A stretch of 26,765 nt of DNA, taken from IMG/VR virus record IMGVR_UViG_3300010885_049626, positions 1-26,765 of that record. One strand, 5' to 3'. The stretch is from a virus. The position numbers and the translations under genes are program-made. Of the stretch, positions 1 through 12,440 are shown piece by piece (position 1 is the first letter of the stretch; the number at the start of each line of letters is the position of its first letter). The notes under the pieces were generated by a model. That model was not told the DNA's origin. It did not search any database and worked only from the letters and a program-made list of their open reading frames with translations.

Positions 1-311
1 GCTTCTTTCCTAGTAATAGGATAATTTTTAGGTATTAGATATACACCTTTATATTCTTCACCTTGTCTAAATACGTGTACATATTCCCTATCCCATGCTG
101 GTACTGTGTAATCAAAATTAAAATTTTCTAAAATTTTAACATTGTCTTCAATTAACCAAAACATATTAGTAGATGATTTTTTTTTAGCACTAAGATATGA
201 TTCATAATTTCCATAAAAATTATTAACTATTTTTAATAGAGGAAATTGATCTTTTAAATATAATTGATTATTTAACGTGTTATTATTAAAAATCGTGATA
301 ATATCATACAT
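1..311 (-). CDS. Glycosyltransferase-like protein, N-terminal part (3' end beyond window)
   Basis: An ATG at 311 overlaps the TAA of the dehydrogenase gene (TAATG). The frame stays open for 103 codons to the left edge, so only the N-terminus is visible. A segment reading MFWLIEDNVKI is followed by NFNFDY, then YVHVFRQGEEYKGVYLIPK. This arrangement (acidic pair after a hydrophobic strand, an aromatic FxF, then YVHV...GVYL) resembles the DxD region of a glycosyltransferase-like family common in marine T4-like phages. It also resembles the 11562-12440 product (ITVDADN...FF...DYVFSW...NGL). The role is probably transfer of a sugar or related group, but this cannot be shown from a fragment. A run of nine A (coding strand, 185-177) encodes consecutive lysines. 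The ribosome site is weak, so translation is probably coupled to the upstream gene. Confidence 0.6.
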   Translation of the reverse strand, partial: MYDIITIFNNNTLNNQLYLKDQFPLLKIVNNFYGNYESYLSAKKKSSTNMFWLIEDNVKILENFNFDYTVPAWDREYVHVFRQGEEYKGVYLIPKNYPITRKE

Positions 312-979
312 TAAAAACACTCAATATTTGGAAACATAGTAATTGTCTTATAGATAATTTTATTATCTTGAGATGATATATAATAGATCATATCTACGAT
401 AGATTGCGGATTTATAGCATCTGATACATTACCCAATGGATATGGGTTATTATCATTCCATAATGTAGTATTAATTCCGCCCGGATGTATACTCGTTACA
501 GAGATTCCTCTTAGATTTAACTCTTTTCCAAGTATATTAGCAAATGAAGTTAATCCGTGTTTACTAGCGGAGTATATAGATTGATTTTCAATATCATTTA
601 ACCCAGCTACTGAGTTAACAAATATTATCTTTCCTCCTTTTACCATTTTAGTTAAAGAGCATTTTGTTACATATATAGATCCTTTTAAGTTAGTATCTAA
701 TATAGAATCAATTATATCAATATCAGTTTTTTCAAATTGTTCTAACTTAAAGATAGCTGCATTATTAATTACAACATCAATATGGGTGATCTCTGTTAAA
801 GAGTTAGATAAACTTTCATAATCAGTGATATCGAGATTATAATGTTTATATCTATCAGAAAATATGGGTGCCTTGGAACGAGATATTCCTATCACTAGCC
901 ATCCCTGAGATAAAAAATAATTAGCAAGTTCTAACCCTAATCCTCTACTTGTTCCTGTGATTAATACAACTTTAAACAA
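311..979 (-). CDS. Short-chain dehydrogenase/reductase (classical SDR)
   Basis: The 222-aa protein has the classical SDR layout. A Rossmann nucleotide-binding motif TGTSRGLG lies at residues 8-15, NNAA at 72-75, and the catalytic set is N97, S123, Y136 and K140 (YSASK). PGG follows near 167. The length is near the usual 230-250 aa. It should oxidise or reduce an alcohol/ketone with NAD(P)H; the substrate is unknown. The start is TTG, supported by AGGAG at 990-986 with a 6-base spacer; this site overlaps the TAG stop of the upstream gene. It lies downstream of a cyclase, RuBisCO-like protein and nucleotidylyltransferase, so a reasonable inference is that it works on a cyclitol or sugar in the same pathway. 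The family call is secure; the substrate is a guess. Confidence 0.9.
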   Translation of the reverse strand: MFKVVLITGTSRGLGLELANYFLSQGWLVIGISRSKAPIFSDRYKHYNLDITDYESLSNSLTEITHIDVVINNAAIFKLEQFEKTDIDIIDSILDTNLKGSIYVTKCSLTKMVKGGKIIFVNSVAGLNDIENQSIYSASKHGLTSFANILGKELNLRGISVTSIHPGGINTTLWNDNNPYPLGNVSDAINPQSIVDMIYYISSQDNKIIYKTITMFPNIECF

Positions 980-988
980 TAAGATCTC

Positions 989-1834
989 CTAAGTATGTTT
1001 AATTATAACATCTTTTTTCCAAAGATTCAAGATATGAGCATAATCTATGTCATCATTTAAAGTAAAAGTATTGATATCAAGTTCTAAATACTTTTTAGGA
1101 TCTATGTAAAAAGATTCACCATTAGATATTATAGAAATATTTGTGTTTTTAAAAAGGATTGCCCATATGCTATGGCTGCTACACCAAAGATATTGATCAT
1201 TTGTACAAGATATGTCTTGATTATTATAGGAAAGGGTTTTAATAGTTTTTATTAAATTACTTTCTAATTTTTTAATTGGTGTAAAATATTTTAACCAATA
1301 TTTTGAAGTTCCATATATTACATCTCCAGAAATTTCAAAAGTTCCTCGATATATATTACATGATTTAGTATAAAATATACTAGATTCTTTTCCTTCTTTT
1401 AGTAATGTTTCAATCGTATGTGGATAGAGCATGGTATCCCACCTAGAACGTATTATATAATCATATTCTTTTAATTCTTCTTTCCATTTATCTAGTGCTA
1501 AAAAAAATCCATATATCTGTCCAACAAATCTATAGAAGTGCTCTTTAGGCATTTTAATTTTTTTAAAATTTACTATATTATCATATAATTGTTTTACAAC
1601 AATTTCTTGATCTACGTGTACTGAATGATTGCCTAAATTTAAAATTATATCGTTAGTGCTATTTAGATTTTTATGTAAATTAATTGATTTTGATTCGCTT
1701 AAATTAGTCCATGTATAAGAAAAAAAATCATATTTAATCTTTAATGTGTCTAATATTTCTCTATTTATTTTATAACCATAAGGAACCATGCGTTGATGTC
1801 CTGACATAATAATAGCTACTTTAGAATCGTGCAT
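989..1834 (-). CDS. Putative glycosyltransferase, RxRxD type (copy 1)
   Basis: The 281-aa protein begins VAIIMSGHQR, then has FFSYTW, and centrally YIIRSRWDTML. Two other genes in the window (8260-9003 and 8990-9754) share this pattern: a short hydrophobic strand, SGxxRT-like turn, a phenylalanine/histidine-tryptophan motif (xxTWD/HFWD) and a central RxRxD. Proteins of this shape are usually annotated as putative glycosyltransferases in marine phages and capsule loci, and the RxRxD aspartate may replace the DxD metal motif. No signal peptide or membrane segment is visible. The ATG at 1834 overlaps the end of the cyclase gene by 14 bases, so it is in the same transcript. It would be a candidate to transfer the activated product of the neighbouring enzymes. 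Function is inferred from family resemblance only. Confidence 0.55.
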   Translation of the reverse strand: MHDSKVAIIMSGHQRMVPYGYKINREILDTLKIKYDFFSYTWTNLSESKSINLHKNLNSTNDIILNLGNHSVHVDQEIVVKQLYDNIVNFKKIKMPKEHFYRFVGQIYGFFLALDKWKEELKEYDYIIRSRWDTMLYPHTIETLLKEGKESSIFYTKSCNIYRGTFEISGDVIYGTSKYWLKYFTPIKKLESNLIKTIKTLSYNNQDISCTNDQYLWCSSHSIWAILFKNTNISIISNGESFYIDPKKYLELDINTFTLNDDIDYAHILNLWKKDVIIKHT

Positions 1835-2897
1835 TTAATTCTTTCATTTTTAAAATAGCTAACAATAATTCAGGATCGGTTAAATTATTAGTTATATTAC
1901 AACTACCTATAGCCGTTGGTAAAGGAAGAAAAATATTTCCATTCCTATGTTTTTTAGTATCCGATAATGCAATGTTTAATAGGTCAATATCAAAAAAATC
2001 TGTATGATATGTAGGAAGAGTATAAGATTGTATTAACTTAAATATCCTAATCAATACATCTTCACAAATCATATTTTTAATAAAAGCTATACATGAACTT
2101 AATAAACAATCTAAAATAACTGCTTCGCCATGTAGTAAATCATCTACATTTTTCATTTCAATAATAGGAGAAAAACTATGTCCAAAATCAACAGGACGTT
2201 CTAAATTTGTTTCCCAAAGATTTGATGTCAATTGTGATAACATTCCACCAATAGCAATATTAATAGTTTGATTTGCAATGTTTCCCTGGAATCGCTGTTC
2301 CATAAGTTCTTTTACATTTTTTTCTAATAGAAGAAATAATTCTTGATCAGTAACAATAGATAATTTAATCATTTCAGCTACTCCGTTTGATATCTGCCTA
2401 TCATCTTGAGTTTTTATAAATTGATTGTCAATTATAGAATATAATGGTGGATAAAAACTACCAAATCTATTTCTCCTGTTAAAATGATTAATACTGGTTT
2501 TAATTCCAATACTAGCATCGATTAGTGATAATAAGGTAGTTGGTATACGTATGTAAGGTATACCTCTCCTATAAATGCTACAACAAAATCCAACTATATC
2601 TAATAAAACTCCTCCGCCAATTGCTATAATTGGCTCAGAACGTCGCAATACATCATTCTTTTCAAAAAAATCTAATATCGATTCAGCTGTTTTCCAATCT
2701 TTAGTCGATTCTAAACATTCAATAGTTAATATCTTAGTATTTTTATCTATAATTATTTTATCACAATATAAATTATAAAAATTTAGATCTATTACAATTA
2801 ATTTTCTATCAATATCTATTTTGTTAAAAGATAGAGCATCTTGAGACCGAAATATCTCAAAAGAAATAGGTAATGATTGAGTTACTTTCCAATTCAT
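1821..2897 (-). CDS. Sugar-phosphate cyclase, sedoheptulose-7-phosphate cyclase (EEVS-like) type
   Basis: The 358-aa protein belongs to the 3-dehydroquinate synthase superfamily. It shows GGGVLLDIVGF (94-104), RRGIPYIRIPTTLLSL (110-125), GIKTSIN (131-137), GVAEMIKL (172-179), RPVDFGHSFSP (234-244) and HGEAV (256-260). The expected metal ligands are E175, H240 and H256; the conserved lysines K133 and K178 are present. Several details fit C7 cyclases such as 2-epi-5-epi-valiolone synthase rather than shikimate-pathway AroB: RNRFGSFYPP after the KT motif, NLWE before RPVDFGH, and Pro at 244 where AroB has the second His of GHxxGH. It should use NAD+ and a divalent metal to close sedoheptulose 7-phosphate to a cyclitol. 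ATG overlaps the upstream stop as ATGA. Superfamily call is strong; exact product is inferred. Confidence 0.82.
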   Translation of the reverse strand: MNWKVTQSLPISFEIFRSQDALSFNKIDIDRKLIVIDLNFYNLYCDKIIIDKNTKILTIECLESTKDWKTAESILDFFEKNDVLRRSEPIIAIGGGVLLDIVGFCCSIYRRGIPYIRIPTTLLSLIDASIGIKTSINHFNRRNRFGSFYPPLYSIIDNQFIKTQDDRQISNGVAEMIKLSIVTDQELFLLLEKNVKELMEQRFQGNIANQTINIAIGGMLSQLTSNLWETNLERPVDFGHSFSPIIEMKNVDDLLHGEAVILDCLLSSCIAFIKNMICEDVLIRIFKLIQSYTLPTYHTDFFDIDLLNIALSDTKKHRNGNIFLPLPTAIGSCNITNNLTDPELLLAILKMKELNARF

Positions 2898-3859
2898 ATT
2901 AATTTATTAACCAAGTAACAAGCGTGAACATAAAAGAATTTAGCAGAATCAAAATCACCAGCATAACATTTGAACGGCAACATTCTAAAAAATTGTGTTG
3001 CTTCAAAAAGTTTAACTAATTTTAATTTTTCTTCTCCATATTTTTCTAATATAGATTTATTAAACATATCATTAAATATAATTAATAATTCTGGTATTTT
3101 TACTAATGATGACACTGAGTTATTTAGGATATTCTTATGAGAATCATTTATTAATCCATAATAACTATTACTACATTGTAATATTTGAGAATAATCCATA
3201 AATTTTGAATCTATTATACCTTCTTCATAAAGATCTATAAACGTTATTTTATTGGTGATAGGCGAATATAATATGTTTTCTAAAGTAGGATTACCGTGTA
3301 CATAACTTTCTTGATCTATCTTTACATGAAATAATTCATTAAATTTTGATTTTATATTTTTTATTCCATTAACAATTTCATTATTATAATGATATTCATC
3401 AATATGATAGAAGTTAGAAAATTCTAAAAATTTTAAAGAATCATTTATTTTTTGTTCAACTTCTTCTAAAAAATATAATTGTAATGAATTAGTATTACAT
3501 GTATAATCCAAAAAATGTAGTTGATCAAAAGAATTCCACAGAGCATCATGGATTTTAACTACTTCTTCTTGAGATAATTTTTTTTCTTTAAACAGAGTTT
3601 TAATATCCTTAGCTTCAATATATTCTATATCAAAATATGCAACGTTGTTAGATACTCCAACATCTAATAATTCAGGTACCATTCCTGGAAATAATTTATT
3701 ATATCTCTGAATTTTTTTTAACTGAGAATACCATCTTACATATCCGTACTCTCTATCAGATTTAGTACTAATAGTTTTTCTAACAAACCATCTACTGCTA
3801 TTTTTATGAAGACAAGTAGAATTTAAAGATCCACCTTTTAACGTAATAATCTCATCCAT
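2894..3859 (-). CDS. APH/choline-kinase-fold protein, possible cyclitol or sugar kinase with altered catalytic motif
   Basis: The 321-aa protein has the signature of aminoglycoside-phosphotransferase-like kinases. RWFVRK with K28 could be the ATP-binding lysine. YVHGNPTLENIL (187-197) matches HGDxxxxNIL, and ITFIDLYEEG matches the metal-binding xxIDxxxxG with D209. The catalytic Asp of HGD is Asn190 here (codon AAT), so the usual catalytic base is missing. N195 and D209 remain. It may be a weak kinase, a binder or a kinase using another base. Such genes often sit beside nucleotidylyltransferases and cupins in capsule loci. Here it lies between a RuBisCO-like gene and a C7 cyclase (8-base and 4-base overlaps), the position where a cyclitol kinase would be expected. 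Substrate unknown. Confidence 0.65.
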   Translation of the reverse strand: MDEIITLKGGSLNSTCLHKNSSRWFVRKTISTKSDREYGYVRWYSQLKKIQRYNKLFPGMVPELLDVGVSNNVAYFDIEYIEAKDIKTLFKEKKLSQEEVVKIHDALWNSFDQLHFLDYTCNTNSLQLYFLEEVEQKINDSLKFLEFSNFYHIDEYHYNNEIVNGIKNIKSKFNELFHVKIDQESYVHGNPTLENILYSPITNKITFIDLYEEGIIDSKFMDYSQILQCSNSYYGLINDSHKNILNNSVSSLVKIPELLIIFNDMFNKSILEKYGEEKLKLVKLFEATQFFRMLPFKCYAGDFDSAKFFYVHACYLVNKLI

Positions 3860-4970
3860 CGATTGCCTTCCTTAAAGATTTAACTGCTGACGAAATTCCA
3901 TCAGGATCGCTATGAACTGCGCCGCCGACATTTGCAAGATAATTTATACCAAATCTAGCAGTAACTTTAGGAATTAAATCAGAATTCATTCCGCAGCTAA
4001 GTGCAGGAATAACATTATATGAAGTTAAAGTATCCATTATGTTCTTTAATGCATCAGGATCATCACTAAGATAACCTCCCCACATTCCTGCGTGTATTGT
4101 ATCAATGCCGCTTATAGCTGCTAACTTACATAATACTAACCAATCAATACCAAAAGGATTTTTTACGTTAGTAATGACTTTATCACCACTTTTTTGATAA
4201 TGGAAAACTAGATTATAATCTTGTCTCCGTACAGCACTGTAAGTTCCAAATCCACTCCATATGTTTAAATGTATACCATTAATACCTAATTCTGAAACTT
4301 TTTTTGCTTTTTCTAAAACTCTGTCAGCATCGGCATTAATACATGCAAGATAAATTATATCTTTATCTGTAATTAAATCTGAAATATATTTTAATCGATC
4401 ATCTAATTGACAAAATACAGGGCTTCCTAAAATTTCATCTTCTTTTATAATATTAGCTCCGCCAATTATCATTTCTTTAACCATTTTAGATACATCTTTT
4501 GGAGAAAGTCCTGTTTTAGGTTTTAATATACATCCTAACAAAGGTCTATCATAAATTTTTGTTATCTTTCTAATCCCATCTAACCCAAATTTAGGAGATA
4601 AAATTGGAATATTTGAAAGATCAATATCTGTTATACGACAGCGTTTAATGTGATCAATATCCATCTGTCCACCTTGTATCATACATAAAAGTTGGCTTAT
4701 CCCGTCTTGATACCAATCGATATTAGATAAAGGATATGAGATAGATACTATCCCATGTGTTTTTTTCACTAAATCTTTCTTATCTCCAATTATTTTTGCA
4801 CAATGATTTTCAATTAATTCAGGAGTTTCAAATTCATTACGTATAGAAGGATTTCCAATACTTTGGCCTATAGAGATAGCCTCAGCTGCTTCTGCTAAGT
4901 TTTTTAGACTAGTAACTTCATATTTTACAGTGATAGAATCTTTCGGGATATTACTTCTATAAATCTCCAT
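3852..4970 (-). CDS. RuBisCO-like protein (RuBisCO large-subunit superfamily, form IV type)
   Basis: The 372-aa protein spans the N-terminal domain and TIM barrel of RuBisCO large subunits. The LKPKTGLSP motif (149-157) supplies equivalents of K175 and K177. GGANIIKEDE (170-179) supplies the carbamylated lysine (K176) and metal ligands (D178, E179). IHAGMWGGYL (292-301) aligns with the loop-6 region: the His is kept (H293) but loop-6 Lys334 is Tyr300. SCG (325-327) replaces the phosphate-binding SGG, while GG (349-350) remains. Loss of the loop-6 lysine argues against CO2 fixation. Known RuBisCO-like proteins catalyse enolase, isomerase or decarboxylase steps on sugar-derived substrates. GAGGT precedes the ATG. 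The gene overlaps a cupin gene (14 bases) and the kinase gene (8 bases), so it belongs to this operon. The superfamily call is very secure; the reaction is unknown. Confidence 0.93.
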   Translation of the reverse strand: MEIYRSNIPKDSITVKYEVTSLKNLAEAAEAISIGQSIGNPSIRNEFETPELIENHCAKIIGDKKDLVKKTHGIVSISYPLSNIDWYQDGISQLLCMIQGGQMDIDHIKRCRITDIDLSNIPILSPKFGLDGIRKITKIYDRPLLGCILKPKTGLSPKDVSKMVKEMIIGGANIIKEDEILGSPVFCQLDDRLKYISDLITDKDIIYLACINADADRVLEKAKKVSELGINGIHLNIWSGFGTYSAVRRQDYNLVFHYQKSGDKVITNVKNPFGIDWLVLCKLAAISGIDTIHAGMWGGYLSDDPDALKNIMDTLTSYNVIPALSCGMNSDLIPKVTARFGINYLANVGGAVHSDPDGISSAVKSLRKAIDG

Positions 4971-5295
4971 TTATTACCTCAATATTATATTTGTCTGTTG
5001 GGTCACTTCTATCTCTAACTACCACTAATTTAACATCCGTAATAAATTCTACCTGGCTAAGTTCATAAGGATAGAGAACAAATATATCACCAGAAACAAA
5101 TTCTTTTCCGTTAATTTTAAGAATTCCTTCAACAATTAGATTGATTTCAATAGATAATTTATGATAATGATCTTGATGATATTCTCCTGCAGAATGCTGA
5201 TGAAATCCTACTTCGAAATTTGCTTTTAATAAGCTAGGTTCAAAGTTTCCAACGAACCATCCTTTGATAAAATTTTCAATTCTATCTATCTTCAT
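4957..5295 (-). CDS. Small single-domain cupin
   Basis: The 112-aa protein has a cupin core. HSAGEYHQDHYHK (34-46) supplies histidines H40, H43 and H45, followed by a conserved-looking Glu (SIEIN) and the second cupin strand pattern INGKEFVSGDIFVLYPYE (GDxFxxxPxE). The start GWFVGNFEPS resembles cupins found next to sugar nucleotidylyltransferases in capsule loci. Such proteins may be metal-dependent isomerases, epimerases or sugar-binding proteins; nothing here fixes the activity. The ATG overlaps the nucleotidylyltransferase stop as ATGA, and the gene's end overlaps the RuBisCO-like gene. In C7-cyclitol pathways an epimerase acts after the cyclase, so this protein is one candidate for that step (inference). 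Confidence 0.75.
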   Translation of the reverse strand: MKIDRIENFIKGWFVGNFEPSLLKANFEVGFHQHSAGEYHQDHYHKLSIEINLIVEGILKINGKEFVSGDIFVLYPYELSQVEFITDVKLVVVRDRSDPTDKYNIEVINGDL

Positions 5296-6017
5296 AGATC
5301 TGACCTAAAATTCATTTTAAAATTTGCTAAATCTTCAGGAGTACCTACCGGCCAAAAGTCGGTATTATTAATATGATATTTTTTAATTTTCAATCCTCTT
5401 GAAATACTAATATTATAGACAGGTGCTACATAATATTCACCATTTTCTTTTATATCATTGTTTATTAATGTTTCGACATCAATAAAAAAATCTTTAGTTT
5501 TTGCCCAGTGATATAATCCAATAGTCGCGTCATTACTTATAACTTGCTTCTCTCTTACTTCAATAATATTATCATCTTCATCAGTCCTAACATAACTACA
5601 CTTTTCACTAGTTTCTTTATATACCGGTATATATGACAAATCCGGATTCTGTTCTAATTGATTTAAAAAATCCTTAGAATCCCAATCTAAATATTGGTCA
5701 CAATTAACTGATAAAAATGGAGAATCAATATCATTTATATATTTTTTAGATAATAGGAGAGTTTCGGCAGCACCTCTTGTATTAGTTTCGCAAGGTATAA
5801 TTTCGTTACCTATTGCTAATAACATTTTTTCTAAATAACTATATTTTTGTAAATGTTCTGTTTTTACAATAAAATATATCTTTCCTGGAATCTTTAATGT
5901 ATTTACAGCATGGTAAATCATCGGAGCACCGTTAAAAGAAATGAGATACTTAGGAATATTATATCCTACATCTATAAATCTTTTTCCATTGCCGCACATG
6001 GCAAAAACAATATTCAT
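5292..6017 (-). CDS. Sugar-phosphate nucleotidylyltransferase (NTP transferase)
   Basis: The 241-aa protein starts with a nucleotidyltransferase signature: a hydrophobic strand, GNGKRF (10-15), then IPKYLISFNGAPMI. These are the GxGxRF loop and the PK lysine that bind NTP and sugar phosphate. FLSVNCDQYLDW carries the metal-binding Asp, and FWPVGTPEDL near the C-terminus is the usual end motif of this group. It should couple a phosphorylated sugar or cyclitol to a nucleotide, giving the activated donor for the glycosyltransferases encoded nearby. The length is typical of the single-domain capsule-type enzymes, without a C-terminal beta-helix. Both ends overlap neighbours as ATGA, so expression is coupled. 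Nucleotide and sugar specificity cannot be read by eye. Confidence 0.88.
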   Translation of the reverse strand: MNIVFAMCGNGKRFIDVGYNIPKYLISFNGAPMIYHAVNTLKIPGKIYFIVKTEHLQKYSYLEKMLLAIGNEIIPCETNTRGAAETLLLSKKYINDIDSPFLSVNCDQYLDWDSKDFLNQLEQNPDLSYIPVYKETSEKCSYVRTDEDDNIIEVREKQVISNDATIGLYHWAKTKDFFIDVETLINNDIKENGEYYVAPVYNISISRGLKIKKYHINNTDFWPVGTPEDLANFKMNFRSDL

Positions 6018-6685
6018 AACTCTATCTTCCTTGATATTTCATCTGCCCATAATTTATGGGTTTCAATTGTAGGATGTCCATATTGAAATCTACTATGATC
6101 ATTGTCTTCTATATATTGTTTCCAAGAAGTAGGGTATAAATTTATTAATCCTTGATTAAATTCTCTATTTGATATATAGTTTAATTTATCCACAGGTGTT
6201 CCAAATGCAATAAAATCATAATATTTTATTCCTAATCCTGCACATAAATTCCTAAGAATTAACATATAACGAATTTGCTGTATTTGAAGAGATTTTTCAT
6301 CATAAATTTTATAAAAAATTTGTTGGAAATTTTTTAAATTGTGCGACTGACTATTTTTTCCTATAATGCTATGTGCTGTTATATGATGAAAATTGTTATC
6401 TATACATATTTCAGTTCGTTCAGGTATCGTCCACCCTACTATAACTATTAAATTTTTTGGAGATTTTCCTTTTCCAATCCAATTTAAAATAAAGTTATTA
6501 GTTTTTCTAAATATATAATCATTACTTGCGGCGCCTGCTCCTTCGTTAATACATAAAGATAAATTTAGTTTTTCCATAGTAAACCAAGGCCATGTATGAT
6601 AATACCACTCAGTAGTGCAAGGCAATTTTCTAGGAATTTCCTGGCCAGCAGTCCAACTATCGCCACAAGCATATAATAATTTCAT
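6014..6685 (-). CDS. SGNH/GDSL hydrolase-like protein (copy 1)
   Basis: The 223-aa protein opens with LLYACGDSWTAG, which is block I of SGNH hydrolases with nucleophile Ser10. GAGAASNDYIFR gives the block II glycine and asparagine. VGWTIPERTEI stands where block III (GxND) is expected, with Thr rather than Asn-Asp. GHPTIETHKLWA near the C-terminus could supply the catalytic His (HPxxxxH). It shares this unusual layout with the 7458-8276 product (VGLTSPERKDF, HPSELGHTWWA), so they are paralogues. The likely role is esterase or acyl-transfer chemistry on a glycan, such as O-acetyl removal, but activity is not shown. No signal peptide is visible. The ATG overlaps the upstream stop as ATGA. Confidence 0.7.
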   Translation of the reverse strand: MKLLYACGDSWTAGQEIPRKLPCTTEWYYHTWPWFTMEKLNLSLCINEGAGAASNDYIFRKTNNFILNWIGKGKSPKNLIVIVGWTIPERTEICIDNNFHHITAHSIIGKNSQSHNLKNFQQIFYKIYDEKSLQIQQIRYMLILRNLCAGLGIKYYDFIAFGTPVDKLNYISNREFNQGLINLYPTSWKQYIEDNDHSRFQYGHPTIETHKLWADEISRKIEL

Positions 6686-7464
6686 ATTAAATTATATCTT
6701 TCTATATGTTTTATTATATTTTCACCTACTAATCTATTTCCTATTTCATTACAATGCCCACTGCCTCTAGTGTCTGGATATTGATTCGTATATATTCCCC
6801 AACTATGTTCTAGATTATTTTCTGGAGATATCACTTTAGGATGCCGATGTCCCATTAGTACATGTGGAATATTATGATATTTTAATAAAAGATGCATATG
6901 TACAAACAAGGAATCATCATATGTTTTTTTAATACCTGTATCAAATAATTCCAAGAAATACTTTTTTATTGCCTCAAATTTATTTGAGTTTACTTTTAAA
7001 AATAACTGTTTAATTCCCGGAGATTTTCCGTTTTGATAATACTCTATATTTGATATAGTTTCAGTTATTAATCTAGGATTAGATGATGTATTAAATTCTA
7101 ATGGTCTGCATACATCAGGACCAGTTTCTGGTGCATAAGGAACATATGAAAGATATTCTACATCTGAAAGATCCGGACGACGGTATTTAAACCCATCATC
7201 TAATGGAAAAATTATCCTTTCATGATAAGTTGTTGTAATTAATACAAGAGGCTTATATGCAGGATCAGATTTTGTTTGTTCAATTATTTTTTCTACTTGT
7301 AAAAAAATAGTCATATTACAACATCCAGAACGTGCATATATACGTTGAGGTAAATCAAAATATTTAGATACTACTCCACTGAAATTGTCCTCAAAAGACG
7401 TTTTGTCAGGTAACCCTGCACCTACTCCAAAACTATCTCCACAAACTGCTATATGTGTTACCAT
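6682..7464 (-). CDS. SGNH/GDSL hydrolase-like protein (copy 2, divergent)
   Basis: The 260-aa protein begins MVTHIAVCGDSFGVG, an SGNH block I with Ser11. ARSGCCNMTIF could be block II (Gly and Asn). LITTTYHERIIF aligns with the VGxTxPER region of the two neighbouring copies but is more divergent. GSGHCNEIGNRLVGENI at the C-terminus offers a His and Asn in place of HPSxxGH. It is longer than copy 1 and contains a middle insertion with little recognisable structure. It probably acts on an ester or acyl group of a glycan, as inferred from fold and context. It overlaps copy 3 by 7 bases and copy 1 by 4 bases. Family assignment rests on block I and overall order. Confidence 0.6.
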   Translation of the reverse strand: MVTHIAVCGDSFGVGAGLPDKTSFEDNFSGVVSKYFDLPQRIYARSGCCNMTIFLQVEKIIEQTKSDPAYKPLVLITTTYHERIIFPLDDGFKYRRPDLSDVEYLSYVPYAPETGPDVCRPLEFNTSSNPRLITETISNIEYYQNGKSPGIKQLFLKVNSNKFEAIKKYFLELFDTGIKKTYDDSLFVHMHLLLKYHNIPHVLMGHRHPKVISPENNLEHSWGIYTNQYPDTRGSGHCNEIGNRLVGENIIKHIERYNLI

Positions 7465-8276
7465 AGATTATTATCCTTACAATATTCATAAACATGTTCG
7501 GCCCACCATGTGTGCCCAAGTTCCGAGGGATGCATTTTTAAAAAAGCATCCGTCTTATTAACCGTTTGATCCTTATTAACTAAAAAATTATGGAAACTTT
7601 GTATCTCATCTTCTTTATGCATAAATTTTATAGGATCAATCATATCCCAAACAAATCTATCCGGTTGACTTTTATAATGCCGAGTATAAGGGTTGTCTAA
7701 CCAATTTTTTAGATGCAAATCCTTATATTGATAAAATGCTTGGAAAAATAGATATTTAATATTGTATTGTTTAAAAACAGTTTGTAAATAAAACAATTGA
7801 TTAACATATCTATGAGTATATTCTTCTGAATTATAAAAATTTTCTATATATGCTTCCGAAAATCGAGCAATATTTCTTTGGGGGTATTTATGAGACCACA
7901 TTGGCCATAAAGTAAACCACCAATTCCCATCATGGGATTTATAGTAAAAATCTTTACGTTCAGGACTAGTTAATCCTACAATTACAAATAATTCATCAGT
8001 GGATTTATTATCTTTAAGATAATATTCAGTTAACCATCCCATAATGTGCCTAACACTTCTATCATTACTCGCTGCTGGATAACTAAGATTTACTACTTCT
8101 TGTACACCTAACATATTTCCTAATTTAGTAGGCCATATCCGAGGTAATCGATATTCATCATTTGGTTTATCCCAATCATTGATATCATCAGATAGTATTG
8201 GATCACGTATTTCGCTACCGTAGGTCCAACTATCGCCGATCACTACTAGTTTTTTTATATTATTCAATTCGTTCAT
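7458..8276 (-). CDS. SGNH/GDSL hydrolase-like protein (copy 3)
   Basis: The 272-aa protein has LVVIGDSWTYGSEI near the start (Ser16, block I), YPAASNDRSVRHI (block II-like), FVIVGLTSPERKDF (block III position) and MHPSELGHTWWAEHV (block V-like, two histidines). These blocks match copy 1 in order and wording, so the two are clear paralogues, with copy 2 more distant. Between blocks III and V lies an aromatic-rich stretch (WWFTLWPMWSHKYPQ) that could bind carbohydrate, though this is inference. The expected chemistry is hydrolysis or transfer of an acyl group on a glycan. The gene overlaps the upstream RxRxD glycosyltransferase-like gene by 17 bases. No signal peptide or membrane segment is visible, so it probably acts in the cytoplasm. 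Confidence 0.68.
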   Translation of the reverse strand: MNELNNIKKLVVIGDSWTYGSEIRDPILSDDINDWDKPNDEYRLPRIWPTKLGNMLGVQEVVNLSYPAASNDRSVRHIMGWLTEYYLKDNKSTDELFVIVGLTSPERKDFYYKSHDGNWWFTLWPMWSHKYPQRNIARFSEAYIENFYNSEEYTHRYVNQLFYLQTVFKQYNIKYLFFQAFYQYKDLHLKNWLDNPYTRHYKSQPDRFVWDMIDPIKFMHKEDEIQSFHNFLVNKDQTVNKTDAFLKMHPSELGHTWWAEHVYEYCKDNNLW

Positions 8277-9003
8277 ACCTTTCTCTTATTTTATCATAAT
8301 CAGTAAACGGATCTAAATGCGAAACATCATCTCTCCAAGGAATTTCTCTAATACCTTGTACAAATCTTATCAAAGCAATATTATATTTTATACAAATATC
8401 ATATATAAGTGTTCCTGGACTGTAATATGTATTTGTTGGATCAAATTTAAATCCACGTAGTATTAATGAGTTTTTCTTAAGTGCTACGTGTTTGTAATAC
8501 ATATAAACATTAGTGGCTATGTCCATAGATTGGCTATCTCCCCAAAAAATGATATCATTAATACCATGACGTTCTACATCGGTTGATGTTATTCCAAAAT
8601 TTCCGCCAGGACAATAAATTGTTCGAGGCATTAAATTATTCAATATAAACATACTACTCGGATGAAACACTAAATCAAATCGAGTTCTAATTACTAAATC
8701 ATATCGGAAATTATTTTCTATTTCGTATTTCTTTTTCAATTCGTTCGCCATCATTATGCTGTAAAGCATACTACCAAAAGATCCGTGCTCTGATTTTTCA
8801 TAAGGAGATTCAATTATATAACTAGTTGGTAGATATAATTCATTTAATTTTTTAAGAGAATCTGTATTATGACCGACGTCCCATGTATGATAAAATATAT
8901 CATAATCTTCCAATAAAGAAAAAAACTTTCTAAAAGATTCTATAGCAAGAATTCCAGTTCTTGTTAATCCACTTACACAGATTGCAACTCTACCAAATTT
9001 CAT
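8260..9003 (-). CDS. Putative glycosyltransferase, RxRxD type (copy 2)
   Basis: I place the start at ATG 9003, because GAGG lies six bases upstream; an in-frame GTG at 9009 would sit almost on that site. The 247-aa protein begins MKFGRVAICVSGLTRTG, then IFYHTWDVG, LVIRTRFDLVF and IIFWGDSQSM. The same order of blocks occurs in the next gene upstream (IAICFSGQLRTW, VFCHFWDF, LVVRARYDSFY, ICWIADS) and in 989-1834. The RxRxD motif probably lies at the active site in place of DxD. The family is annotated as putative glycosyltransferase in phages and capsule loci; no biochemistry is known to me. It overlaps both neighbours, so it is part of the same operon. Likely cytoplasmic. Confidence 0.58.
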   Translation of the reverse strand: MKFGRVAICVSGLTRTGILAIESFRKFFSLLEDYDIFYHTWDVGHNTDSLKKLNELYLPTSYIIESPYEKSEHGSFGSMLYSIMMANELKKKYEIENNFRYDLVIRTRFDLVFHPSSMFILNNLMPRTIYCPGGNFGITSTDVERHGINDIIFWGDSQSMDIATNVYMYYKHVALKKNSLILRGFKFDPTNTYYSPGTLIYDICIKYNIALIRFVQGIREIPWRDDVSHLDPFTDYDKIRERYERIE

Positions 9004-9754
9004 AACCACCCTCTGTCTTGCTATAAGAGTATGCTCGTGATTCTCTAAATATTTTTATATCCCAACTATTTGAAATTAAAGATATATTGCATTTCTTAAG
9101 GTAATGAAAAAACACACTTTCAGGAACTATGGAAGAATTAAACCACGATTTATTAATGTATTTTAAATTTAAATAATAATCAGATATAATATCATATGTA
9201 GTAGAATCTGCTATCCAACAAATATCTCCCATTCGACCTATTTTATTATGATTAGTCCATCCATAATGGAATCCATGCATAGTATCCGGAATTATATTAT
9301 CATAATAAGTCGATACTTGAGTATTATAAAAGGAATCATATCGAGCGCGAACGACCAAATTATACATTAGATTATTTTCTATTTCATATTCTTTTTTTAA
9401 TCTAGCAGATCGCATAATTCCATAAAATTGACTTAAGAACGGAGGATGTATTAATGCTTGTGATTCCGACATTGGAATAAAATTCTTTTCAGATTCTATT
9501 AAAAACTTCTTAGGCTTTAAAATATCTCTTATTTCATAAATTTCTTCTATCGGAACTAATGTAGATATTGGATTAGATTTTGATTCTATAGAATTTGGTA
9601 GATTATTAAAATCCCAAAAGTGACAAAAAACATCAATGTTATCACTTGATCCGTTATGTAATAATATATTATGCCAAGTATCTATACATTTTCTCCAAGT
9701 ACGTAATTGACCACTAAAACATATTGCTATTTGATTAGATCCAGTTTTTAACAT
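8990..9754 (-). CDS. Putative glycosyltransferase, RxRxD type (copy 3)
   Basis: I favour ATG 9754, which leaves eight residues before IAICFSGQLRTW, as in the sister proteins. An in-frame GTG at 9763 is possible; both starts have a GGAG only a few bases ahead, so the choice is not settled. The protein of about 254 aa has VFCHFWDF, a central LVVRARYDSFY and RMGDICWIADSTTYD. It is closest to the adjacent 8260-9003 product, suggesting tandem duplication followed by divergence. The role is probably transfer of a sugar-like group to a glycan or protein, inferred from family only. It overlaps the GDPD-like gene by 20 bases at its start and the next gene by 14 bases at its end. Confidence 0.56.
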   Translation of the reverse strand: MLKTGSNQIAICFSGQLRTWRKCIDTWHNILLHNGSSDNIDVFCHFWDFNNLPNSIESKSNPISTLVPIEEIYEIRDILKPKKFLIESEKNFIPMSESQALIHPPFLSQFYGIMRSARLKKEYEIENNLMYNLVVRARYDSFYNTQVSTYYDNIIPDTMHGFHYGWTNHNKIGRMGDICWIADSTTYDIISDYYLNLKYINKSWFNSSIVPESVFFHYLKKCNISLISNSWDIKIFRESRAYSYSKTEGGYEIW

Positions 9755-10163
9755 AATCTCCACATACTCCGTATAAATTATTCAAATCTATAGTTAATTC
9801 TTTTGTTAATACAACTGACACCGATAATAAACTGAGATTTTCTCCAGGATAAGTCCAGATATACCCTTTGCTTGTTAGTGTTCGTTTATCATTTTCATGC
9901 CAAAAGCAGTGTATTCCATTATTTAGTAAACAAGTTAATGCTTCTAAATTTTTAGCGTGACACCAAAGTTTTTCATTTTTTAAAAATTCTACATCAACAG
10001 GGTATTTTGGATAATCATGGCCTAACATAAATTGTCCGTCAACATGCCAAACGTCTATTTCACAATCAAAACCGGCTTCAATAGAATCTAAAATATATTC
10101 TATAGAATTTTCTTTTTCTAAATTTGGACCTATTAAGTTACCTCTATGAGAAATATATTTCAT
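9735..10163 (-). CDS. Compact GDPD-like protein (glycerophosphodiester phosphodiesterase family)
   Basis: The 142-aa protein reads ISHRGN at the start, then ENSIEYI, then GFDCEIDVW and FMLGHDY. These match the HRG, EN(T/S), ExD and HD motifs of glycerophosphodiester phosphodiesterases, which use the Glu and Asp for a metal. WCHAKN, HCFWHENDKRTLTSKG and IWTYPG follow in the order of the barrel strands, and GVCGDYV near the end corresponds to the final DY(P) motif. It is about half the usual length, so either the barrel is strongly trimmed or the protein forms a partial barrel. It could cleave a phosphodiester in a glycan or lipid; substrate unknown. The ATG overlaps the radical SAM stop as ATGA. 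Confidence 0.72.
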   Translation of the reverse strand: MKYISHRGNLIGPNLEKENSIEYILDSIEAGFDCEIDVWHVDGQFMLGHDYPKYPVDVEFLKNEKLWCHAKNLEALTCLLNNGIHCFWHENDKRTLTSKGYIWTYPGENLSLLSVSVVLTKELTIDLNNLYGVCGDYVKNWI

Positions 10164-11548
10164 GTTTCTTTATACTTTTTGTAAAATTCTTCAAATTCAG
10201 GAAATGTTTCTAAAAAATTAGTTCCCCTGCGCCGATCGTGCTCGTCTACAAATTTAATAAAATCTTTCCTATTATTATTAGAGTACTCATTTTCTGGATT
10301 ATTTTCAGCCATATTATAGATTCTTTTTAGTTTATCAGCTTCGTACTCTGAAAATCCTCTATTAGCACACCCAAACCAATTTTTATTTTCTAAATTTTGA
10401 TATATGTAGGTTGTTTGATCATATATCATTTCTATCATCGCTGGATCCATTATGAAGATAGTTTGATGTGTAGGAAATTTTAGATAAGGAATGTCTAATA
10501 AAATAGGGTTATGTGTTTTATAACTTCCATACTTTCTTTTAATTTCTAATAAATCATTTAAAAATTTTGTATAAGAAGTTAGGCTTAATATATTATATGT
10601 ACTCATTACCGTAAAACTTATATTCGGTATAGCATCAAAAACTTTATAAATGTTTGATAACCAAAGATCGTAATCCATACCAAATCGTATATATTCAGCT
10701 TGTCTTCCATGTGCTTCGGCGCTAGTAAAAATTTTAAATTTCTTAACTTTTTTTTCTTCAACTATAATTTTAATTTTTTCAATAAACTTATCCATAAGTT
10801 CAACCGGAGGACACATGTTTGAATTAATTGAAAAATCTAAATTTGGATTAGGATTTTCAATTATATAATCTAATACTTTGAAGGTATTTTTATTTAAAAG
10901 TGGTTCTCCTCCAGTTATACGAAAATGCTCTACAGAATTGTAAATCTTTGGCCACCATTCCCAAAATGCATCTACATAAGGATTATATTGATTATTTGGA
11001 ATTGGTAACATATCTTGAGATTTAATCCATCCTAAATTATTAAAAGACGAGGAAGTTGGATATGCTCCAAATTGCTGAATTTCTTCCATCCATTTAGAAC
11101 TAATATGAGGGGCACAATAACTACATTTAAAATTACAAACATTTCCAAAACTAACCTCAACATAACTAGGTGCAACATCATCATCCCAAGGTTTCTTTAT
11201 TATATCAGAAATATAGGGAGCAGCCCACTTATCAGCGGATTTAAAAACTCTATCACTTAATGAATTACTTGTATCTTCTACTTTCCAACAATAATCACAT
11301 TCAGATGGCCGTTTATTATCTAGCATCATCTTTCTTTGTTCTTTCTTATAAGAAGTATTGTGTAATGCACCTGGATTATTAAGTAATTCTTCTACTGGAA
11401 CCTTATGGGTGCGAGGATGATGACAGCTATGAGTATGCCCGTTTTGTAAGTGTATAGTAACTTGCTTCCATTTGGCTGCACAAAAAGAATTACTAACTGT
11501 ATCTAAATTTTCTTTCTTCCATTGTATTAAATTATTTTCTGTTGTCAC
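10160..11548 (-). CDS. Radical SAM protein with N-terminal twitch-type cysteine region
   Basis: I choose GTG 11548 (462 aa) because AAGGG lies about eight bases before it; a TTG at 11572 would add eight residues and overlap the upstream gene. The radical SAM motif is CNFKCSYC (CxxxCxxC), the three cysteines that bind the 4Fe-4S cluster and S-adenosylmethionine, followed by a glycine-rich RITGGEPL. Upstream, NSFCAAKW, HSCHHPR and SECDYCWKVED supply extra cysteines, as in the family with an N-terminal twitch domain holding an auxiliary Fe-S cluster. Phage members of this family are known to me only as predicted enzymes. In this glycan operon it could modify a sugar, for example by epimerisation or dehydration, or a peptide. 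The family is secure; substrate unknown. Confidence 0.85.
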   Translation of the reverse strand: MTTENNLIQWKKENLDTVSNSFCAAKWKQVTIHLQNGHTHSCHHPRTHKVPVEELLNNPGALHNTSYKKEQRKMMLDNKRPSECDYCWKVEDTSNSLSDRVFKSADKWAAPYISDIIKKPWDDDVAPSYVEVSFGNVCNFKCSYCAPHISSKWMEEIQQFGAYPTSSSFNNLGWIKSQDMLPIPNNQYNPYVDAFWEWWPKIYNSVEHFRITGGEPLLNKNTFKVLDYIIENPNPNLDFSINSNMCPPVELMDKFIEKIKIIVEEKKVKKFKIFTSAEAHGRQAEYIRFGMDYDLWLSNIYKVFDAIPNISFTVMSTYNILSLTSYTKFLNDLLEIKRKYGSYKTHNPILLDIPYLKFPTHQTIFIMDPAMIEMIYDQTTYIYQNLENKNWFGCANRGFSEYEADKLKRIYNMAENNPENEYSNNNRKDFIKFVDEHDRRRGTNFLETFPEFEEFYKKYKET

Positions 11549-11561
11549 ATTATTATCCCTT

Positions 11562-12440
11562 TTATCTTCCAATTATCCTAGGAGTATTCTGATATACCGA
11601 TTTAAAAAATTGTGAAGAGTTTGCATCCATTTCAGCTATCTCTAAATTTAAATTCTGTCTTAGATTATTTCCAATACCTTCTAATTCATCTTCAACATCA
11701 ATATGTTCAACATGAGTCTTCCAATAATCTGTTAAATATTCGAAATCTCTAACCTGTGTATAATCCCAATCAGTACAGGCAGTAAGATAGCATCCCAATC
11801 GGGCTCCATACATTGCCCAATATCCATTCTTTACATCAGCACCAACATTGCACCATATTAATAGCCTATGATAATTCTGCCACCAGACTCGCTTAATATC
11901 AACTGCTTTAGCGCCTCGATCAAGACTCATCTTAACACCTTCACGGAACCCTGCACGCCAGGCCTGGAAAGTACTTCCATTAATATAACTAGTAGAATAA
12001 CATTCATTCATCTGATAATATCTAGGATCAAAACAAAATTCAACTACACTTTCCGTATCATTAGGATCCGAATTTTCATGCGTCTTCATATTAAGGACAA
12101 AATCTTTAGTCCAGCATTTGAGACCACCATTACCATATATAAGACCATTTATAGCATTCTTACCGCACCATGAAAATACGTAATCGTTATTCTCATCTGT
12201 TAGTTCGATGTTCTGTGCAAAAAATTTAGAATCAATTATATTATCAGCATCAACTGTGATAAATCTGTCAGTTTCACTTAGATTAGCAGCAGCCTTGTGT
12301 GCGCTGTCGCTGCCCTTAACACCATGTATACGTTTAGCCCATGGCAATATCTTTACTAATTCTGAATAATTCTTATCAGCATTAGGTTCATCGTAGCTAA
12401 TGAATATAGTATCAATATCATGTAGTATTAGTTTAGTCAT
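11562..12440 (-). CDS. Glycosyltransferase-like protein with DAD motif
   Basis: The 292-aa protein has FISYDEPNADKNY near residues 13-25, RIHGVKGSDSAHKAAANL, then FITVDADNIID with D64-x-D66, a typical GT-A metal motif. DYVFSWCGKNAINGLIYGNGG follows in two pieces (shown here as DYVFSW and NGLIYGNGGLKCW). This order is familiar from a protein family widespread in marine T4-like phages and annotated as glycosyltransferase-like. The acceptor is unknown. Its ATG overlaps the 209-aa gene's stop as ATGA. GC content by eye is higher here than in the flanking genes, and codon use is less AT-extreme, which may reflect an older core gene. No signal peptide or membrane helix is seen. Confidence 0.68.
   Translation of the reverse strand: MTKLILHDIDTIFISYDEPNADKNYSELVKILPWAKRIHGVKGSDSAHKAAANLSETDRFITVDADNIIDSKFFAQNIELTDENNDYVFSWCGKNAINGLIYGNGGLKCWTKDFVLNMKTHENSDPNDTESVVEFCFDPRYYQMNECYSTSYINGSTFQAWRAGFREGVKMSLDRGAKAVDIKRVWWQNYHRLLIWCNVGADVKNGYWAMYGARLGCYLTACTDWDYTQVRDFEYLTDYWKTHVEHIDVEDELEGIGNNLRQNLNLEIAEMDANSSQFFKSVYQNTPRIIGR

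Follow-up and report, generated by a model that had tools for sequence, protein, structure and literature searches.

Pseudosugars such as acarbose are products of cellular secondary metabolism, made from gene clusters of which that on an Agrobacterium vitis plasmid comprises a ROK kinase, an MDR, a short-chain dehydrogenase/reductase (SDR) and a sugar-phosphate isomerase/epimerase; the RuBisCO-like proteins (RLPs) with an established role, on the other hand, all act, to our knowledge, in catabolism or salvage. The virus record IMGVR_UViG_3300010885_049626 (26,765 bases, analysed in full and hereafter called the window) carries an operon, at positions 311-6017, in which the gene of a predicted sedoheptulose-7-phosphate (SH7P) cyclase and that of an RLP stand in one chain with a sugar-phosphate nucleotidylyltransferase. 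An earlier note on this DNA read the seven genes of the operon as a single C7-cyclitol pathway with the RLP as its epimerase or isomerase. We favour a different reading, to which we give a probability of roughly 0.7, namely that two phage sugar cassettes, which travel independently of each other, meet in this operon and have one nucleotidylyltransferase in common. Gene content, linkage, separability, RLP exchange and residue conservation are what we observe, whereas every reaction, substrate, product and target glycan discussed below is one that we infer.

The operon lies on the minus strand and encodes, in transcription order, the nucleotidylyltransferase (NTP; 241 amino acids, complement 5292..6017, PF00483 at 1.6e-10), which is the first gene common to both cassettes, a small cupin (112 amino acids, complement 4957..5295), the RLP (372 amino acids, complement 3852..4970, PF00016 at 3e-34), a kinase-fold protein (KIN; 321 amino acids, complement 2894..3859, PF03881 at a marginal 7e-5), the cyclase (CYC; 358 amino acids, complement 1821..2897, PF01761 at 4e-33), an RxRxD protein that is probably glycosyltransferase-like (complement 989..1834) and an SDR (222 amino acids, complement 311..979, PF00106 at 8e-40). 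Consecutive genes from NTP to the RxRxD gene overlap by 4, 14, 8, 4 and 14 bases; a gap of 9 bases then precedes the SDR, which starts with TTG at 979 and whose Shine-Dalgarno sequence AGGAG overlaps the TAG stop of the gene before it. The gene structure given in the earlier note, with its overlaps of 4-14 bases and the ribosome site in the SDR gap, is thereby confirmed throughout; of its family calls, Pfam upholds those of the SDR, cyclase, RLP and NTP, while the kinase is marginal, the cupin has no Pfam match and the RxRxD protein matches neither Pfam nor NCBIfam. The search of viral sequences that the note had proposed also recovered the gene set in order, and because NTP-cupin-RLP-KIN-CYC-SDR recurs in about 19 viral contigs, the arrangement lies far beyond chance. 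The RxRxD gene between CYC and SDR is found at that position in the window and not in the other loci. The chain also continues past 311-6017 on either side, with a gene at 3-320 that shares 10 bases with the SDR and one at 6014-6685 that shares 4 with NTP.

The two parts of this operon are frequently met apart. A cyclase is present in only 9 of the 44 viral RLP loci with 3 kb of sequence downstream, and when 16 RLP contigs were searched whole it appeared in the five that belong to the cyclase group and in none of the other 11, which reach 204 kb. Cyclase and kinase profile scans, in turn, yielded about 26 viral contigs with KIN-CYC-SDR and no RLP at the locus, in most of which a different NTP immediately precedes these genes; the RLP is absent from eight such records searched whole (14-138 kb, possibly fragments). 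KIN, CYC and SDR, by contrast, always occur together where contig extent allows. Cellular genomes with an RLP give no cyclase match or one at the level of AroB (E values of 1e-32 to 1e-44; those of the phage enzymes are below 1e-200).

The RLP tree splits the cyclase-bearing loci, placing the window together with L019, L043 and L041 (and with L064, which has no cyclase), while the RLPs of the others (L011, L016, L022, L042, L051, L085 and L090) nest among those of cyclase-less phages; the NTP and cupin trees, in contrast, hold all cyclase-bearing loci together in one clade. Forcing the RLPs of cyclase loci into a single clade is rejected in an approximately unbiased (AU) test (p = 1.4e-61, or 1.6e-5 with L064 included), the group under test being defined by trait and not by tree. 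By this phylogeny, the RLP in cyclase operons has two origins and has been exchanged with cyclase-less phages. Since cyclase operons retain, as the exchange implies, an RLP whose relatives reside in cyclase-less phages, the protein most likely has a substrate of its own, the same in both settings and distinct from the cyclase product.

These results weigh heavily on the single-pathway proposal, according to which the RLP would enolise a valiolone-type product of the cyclase and all seven genes would lead to one activated cyclitol. Overlapping genes in a single operon, a gene order kept in those 19 or so contigs and a cyclase of EEVS type are what such a pathway would entail; we nevertheless hold it to be very unlikely, given that the RLP is mostly found without the cyclase and the cyclase often without the RLP, that the RLP inside cyclase operons has been swapped for one from cyclase-less phages, and that cellular RLP genomes hold no cyclase or AroB-level matches only. 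Homologous clusters without the cyclase, which the note itself had named as telling against its proposal, are the usual state of RLP loci (35 of 44). What is retained of the C7-cyclitol operon is a conserved viral cassette of cyclase, SDR, kinase-fold protein and usually NTP, a pathway to which the RLP does not appear to belong.

The RLP forms a clade of its own (stem 1.18, support 100/100) apart from forms I and III, OiaX and MtnW, in a tree with few references per group and one sequence each for MtnW and OiaX; its family profile assigns full-length members 530-680 bits (352 for one fragment), compared with at most 224 for ordinary RuBisCO. K175 and the Mg/carbamyl-lysine site K201, D203 and E204 are kept (invariant in 77 and 63 distinct sequences), as are H327 and S379. 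In all sequences scored, however, K334 and H294, both of which carboxylation requires, are replaced by Tyr and Gln respectively, and further changes (R295 to Lys, H298 to Asp, T65 to Asn, W66 to Pro, N123 to Gly and G380 to Cys) have no or almost no exception. Because the Mg site and K175 are kept and K334, H294 and R295 are replaced, as judged from known RuBisCO residues, enolisation by the RLP is plausible and carboxylation is not. A true carboxylase or an already known RLP, serving the phage as an auxiliary metabolic gene in methionine salvage (MtnW) or the apionate pathway (OiaX), would be in keeping with the RuBisCO fold recognised by sequence and with the intact metal site; yet the substitutions of K334 and H294 throughout, scores far under the NCBIfam cut-offs (112 of 409 bits for MtnW, 117 of 700 for OiaX), the separate long-stemmed clade and the lack of methionine-salvage or apionate genes seen around the RLP render this scarcely tenable.

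The family is represented at 86 distinct loci or more, and the number of viral contigs with it may reach a few hundred; SAR11, Nanoarchaeia, Patescibacteria and other cells are also among its carriers. A first genome scan for the RLP gave no match. The survey was seeded with a degenerate DNA pattern for the motif HAGMWGGY, which favours the motif itself and returned 86 viral and 15 genome stretches, nearly all of them genuine RLPs; a Chitinophaga match (L098) was discarded as a chance DNA match with no RLP there. Together with earlier loci, the matches make up 86 distinct RLP loci, 72 viral and 14 cellular. In a second search with patterns for IKEDE or IHAGMWG, which reduces the motif bias without removing it, W297 varies and Q259, K260 and Y300 do not. 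The wider scan produced 342 viral stretches with relatives, the best 80 of which were examined. INPHARED phage records gave no match to the RLP or KIN, and their cyclase matches are AroB-like at about 30% or less. The RLP occurs in 2 of 297 genomes of one Pelagibacter order, and the SAR11 loci L101, L103, L105, L106 and L108 show a patchily distributed arrangement of GDPD, NTP-like, RLP and NTP genes, often beside an Mrp-type ATPase and RxRxD-like genes.

The RLP has regular gene neighbours. In each of the 42 viral loci whose sequence extends 3 kb upstream, an NTP gene lies within 4.5 kb of it; among the 21 with 3 kb on both sides a cupin is nearby in 17 and the gene of a small GDPD-like protein in 14 (47 of 72 overall). 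The nearest solved structures to NTP are an uncharacterised NDP-sugar pyrophosphorylase (4evw) and proteins of the 6-deoxy-D-mannoheptose pathway. The clade of the window NTP includes L156, with a cyclase and no RLP, and L064, with an RLP and no cyclase (100/100), and one NTP lineage is therefore found with each cassette. The cupin profile matches PDB cupins at 4e-6, and H43, H45 and E50 are conserved without exception across 24 aligned sequences. The GDPD-like protein (142 amino acids, complement 9735..10163 in the window) has a confident AlphaFold2 (AF2) model (pLDDT 96.9), its family profile matches the GDPD structure 7e0v at 6.7e-5, and the motifs HR, ExD, LGH and HxK are kept, with H6, R7, E35, D37, H49 and K71 invariant in 25 aligned sequences. 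In the cassette so composed (NTP-cupin-RLP plus the GDPD-like protein), the RLP, with Mg bound at a carbamylated lysine, would deprotonate a phosphorylated ketose; its activity would be that of an isomerase, epimerase or tautomerase, without carboxylation. With the cupin and the GDPD-like protein it may thus supply NTP with a phosphosugar different from that of the cyclase cassette.

For the latter, NTP-KIN-CYC-SDR, the identity of the cyclase is central. The best PDB sequence match of CYC is ValA (4p53, 2e-74), followed by 5tpr (5e-52) and AroB structures, and the copy in the window shares 37-40% identity with three bacterial enzymes annotated as SH7P cyclases; a single-protein scan for CYC gave no match. 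In trees with small reference sets, CYC groups with annotated SH7P cyclases and not with AroB (100/99 split), and all phage copies form one clade of their own (100/99). Two fingerprint sites separate EEVS from DDGS cyclases (PMC4426668). The phage enzyme carries D237 and H317 at the positions taken to be these sites, which are occupied by A and T in a Nostoc DDGS-like enzyme and by N and A/V in AroB; both residues and the metal ligands H240 and H256 are invariant in 38 distinct phage copies, E175 is kept in all of these but one, which has a gap there, and a Pro stands where AroB has its second His, as in ValA. The alignment of CYC with ValA is consistent with the fingerprint sites being, as we presume, D281 and H360 of ValA. 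Judged by these features, phage CYC is an SH7P cyclase of EEVS type, in agreement with the C7-cyclase call of the earlier note. A copy at L011:7992-9017 lacks about 13 residues around the metal Glu that are intact in its near relative L022, owing either to an assembly error or to decay.

The SDR displays the motifs TGxxxGxG, NNAA and YxxxK, with S123, Y136 and K140 invariant in 37 distinct copies. KIN, according to its AF2 model (pLDDT 83), has an APH-type kinase fold, the best Foldseek matches being aminoglycoside phosphotransferases (to 1.7e-6, TM about 0.5); PADLOC gave weak partial matches only. The catalytic Asp of HGDxxxxN is, however, replaced (HGN, N190) in 38 of 38 distinct matches that cover the site. 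With Asn at this site throughout, a kinase reaction is open to doubt, so that the kinase first proposed holds as to its fold and not as to its catalytic Asp. Such conservation of HGN would suit a cassette making a small molecule and no glycan donor, for instance a cyclitol phosphate serving to inhibit an enzyme of the host, with KIN as a binding or regulatory pseudokinase; the known C7 cyclitols include glycosidase inhibitors (PMC8599487), and L161 and L162 have KIN-CYC-SDR with no NTP nearby. Nearly all other cassettes, L156 among them, by contrast have an NTP directly before KIN (NTPb, 53-68% identical to that of L154, in 17 further loci) and usually an RxRxD protein before that, an arrangement that indicates an activated sugar for transfer; we therefore regard the small-molecule alternative as unlikely. 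On the two-cassette reading, CYC would make 2-epi-5-epi-valiolone, or a stereoisomer close to it, from the sedoheptulose 7-phosphate of the host, the ring ketone would be reduced by the SDR, KIN would handle phosphorylation and NTP would deliver a nucleotide-activated C7 cyclitol to nearby transferases. The products of both cassettes probably decorate tail fibres or other glycans of the virion or host surface.

Several points weigh against this reading. Many of the records are fragments, in which an absent gene is no proof of separation and a second cassette may sit in another part of the genome; in the composite operon, overlapping ends tie the RLP gene to KIN and KIN to the cyclase gene, and a joint product is possible there; and with KIN devoid of its catalytic Asp, phosphorylation may not occur as drawn. 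A further point concerns the GDPD-like gene, which in the window stands 3.7 kb upstream of NTP and whose product is smaller than a full-size barrel, lacks a Pfam match and has a weak Foldseek match to GDPD (TM 0.47).

The surroundings of the operon also recur. Between NTP and the GDPD-like gene, likewise on the minus strand, lie three consecutive genes of SGNH-like hydrolases with DUF6071 or GDSL matches (6014-6685, 6682-7464 and 7458-8276), possibly esterases or acyltransferases of the same glycan, and two of RxRxD proteins (8260-9009 and 8990-9763), all collinear with the RLP cassette in related phages; the order GDPD-RXD3-RXD2-SGNH3-SGNH2-SGNH1-NTP-CUPIN-RLP is identical in L138, L142, L144, L147 and L153. 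A radical SAM protein (10160-11572) adjoins the GDPD-like gene and is kept in the same block in other phages, and the tail collar and other structural genes are found upstream of the operon. The RxRxD-motif proteins (989-1834, 8260-9763), for which no family match is good, are met repeatedly next to both cassettes, possibly as a family of phage glycosyltransferases. On the other side, the gene at complement 3..320, cut by the window edge, has by tblastn a related stretch directly after the SDR in, e.g., L011, L022 and L036. In several cyclase operons, as at L019, L043 and L140, the gene after the SDR encodes a NodU-type carbamoyltransferase; the observation also takes in L190 and L039, and in the latter, where there is no cyclase, the RLP precedes an APH-like gene that has HGD and a carbamoyltransferase gene.

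Neither cassette appears to have been described in viruses before: in the literature searched, which left out most subscription journals, nothing joins RLPs with polysaccharide synthesis and nucleotidyltransferases, and no phage valiolone pathway is apparent from titles and abstracts. The wider interpretation, a RuBisCO-fold family with a new enolisation activity in nucleotide-sugar biosynthesis alongside phages that separately build activated C7 cyclitols, both as glycan building blocks, is one that we put forward tentatively and at slightly less than even odds. If true, the roles of the RuBisCO fold would come to include sugar building, by an RLP family with an invariant altered active site beside a nucleotidylyltransferase; pseudosugars would gain a new source in a compact viral cassette around the cyclase, and phages a new kind of glycan. 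The modularity turns this into a testable problem, for each cassette exists alone in other phages and can be assayed separately.

Compared with form IV RLPs (MtnW, OiaX) and form III RuBisCO, the phage RLP shares the family, the Mg site, the position of the carbamylated lysine, Lys175 and the phosphate-site glycines, but differs in its own clade, its altered residues and a gene context of glycan synthesis. Marine RuBisCO homologues outside the known groups were noted in the Global Ocean Sampling (GOS) survey (PMC1821046). The glycan clusters of the cyanophages S-SM2, Bellamy, SynMITS9220M01 and S-CAM9 have a related NTP and a GDPD-like protein, and in Bellamy and SynMITS9220M01 also the cupin, but neither an RLP nor a phage-type cyclase; in S-SM2 and Bellamy an aldolase-family gene and a phosphoheptose isomerase lie nearby instead, a pairing that hints at related sugar-phosphate chemistry. 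With ValA and other EEVS cyclases the phage CYC has in common the metal ligands, the D and H fingerprint residues and its best PDB sequence match, and with the cellular C7-cyclitol clusters (validamycin, acarbose and the A. vitis plasmid) a cyclase placed beside kinase-type and dehydrogenase genes. The likeness to validamycin and acarbose drawn in the earlier note thus extends only to the cyclase and the general logic. Annotated cellular clusters with a related cyclase contain a ROK-type kinase, and that of A. vitis an epimerase too, whereas the KIN-CYC-SDR cassettes hold neither, nor was a pseudoglycosyltransferase seen in them; the partners of the phage cyclase are instead an APH-fold protein, an SDR and, usually, an NTP.

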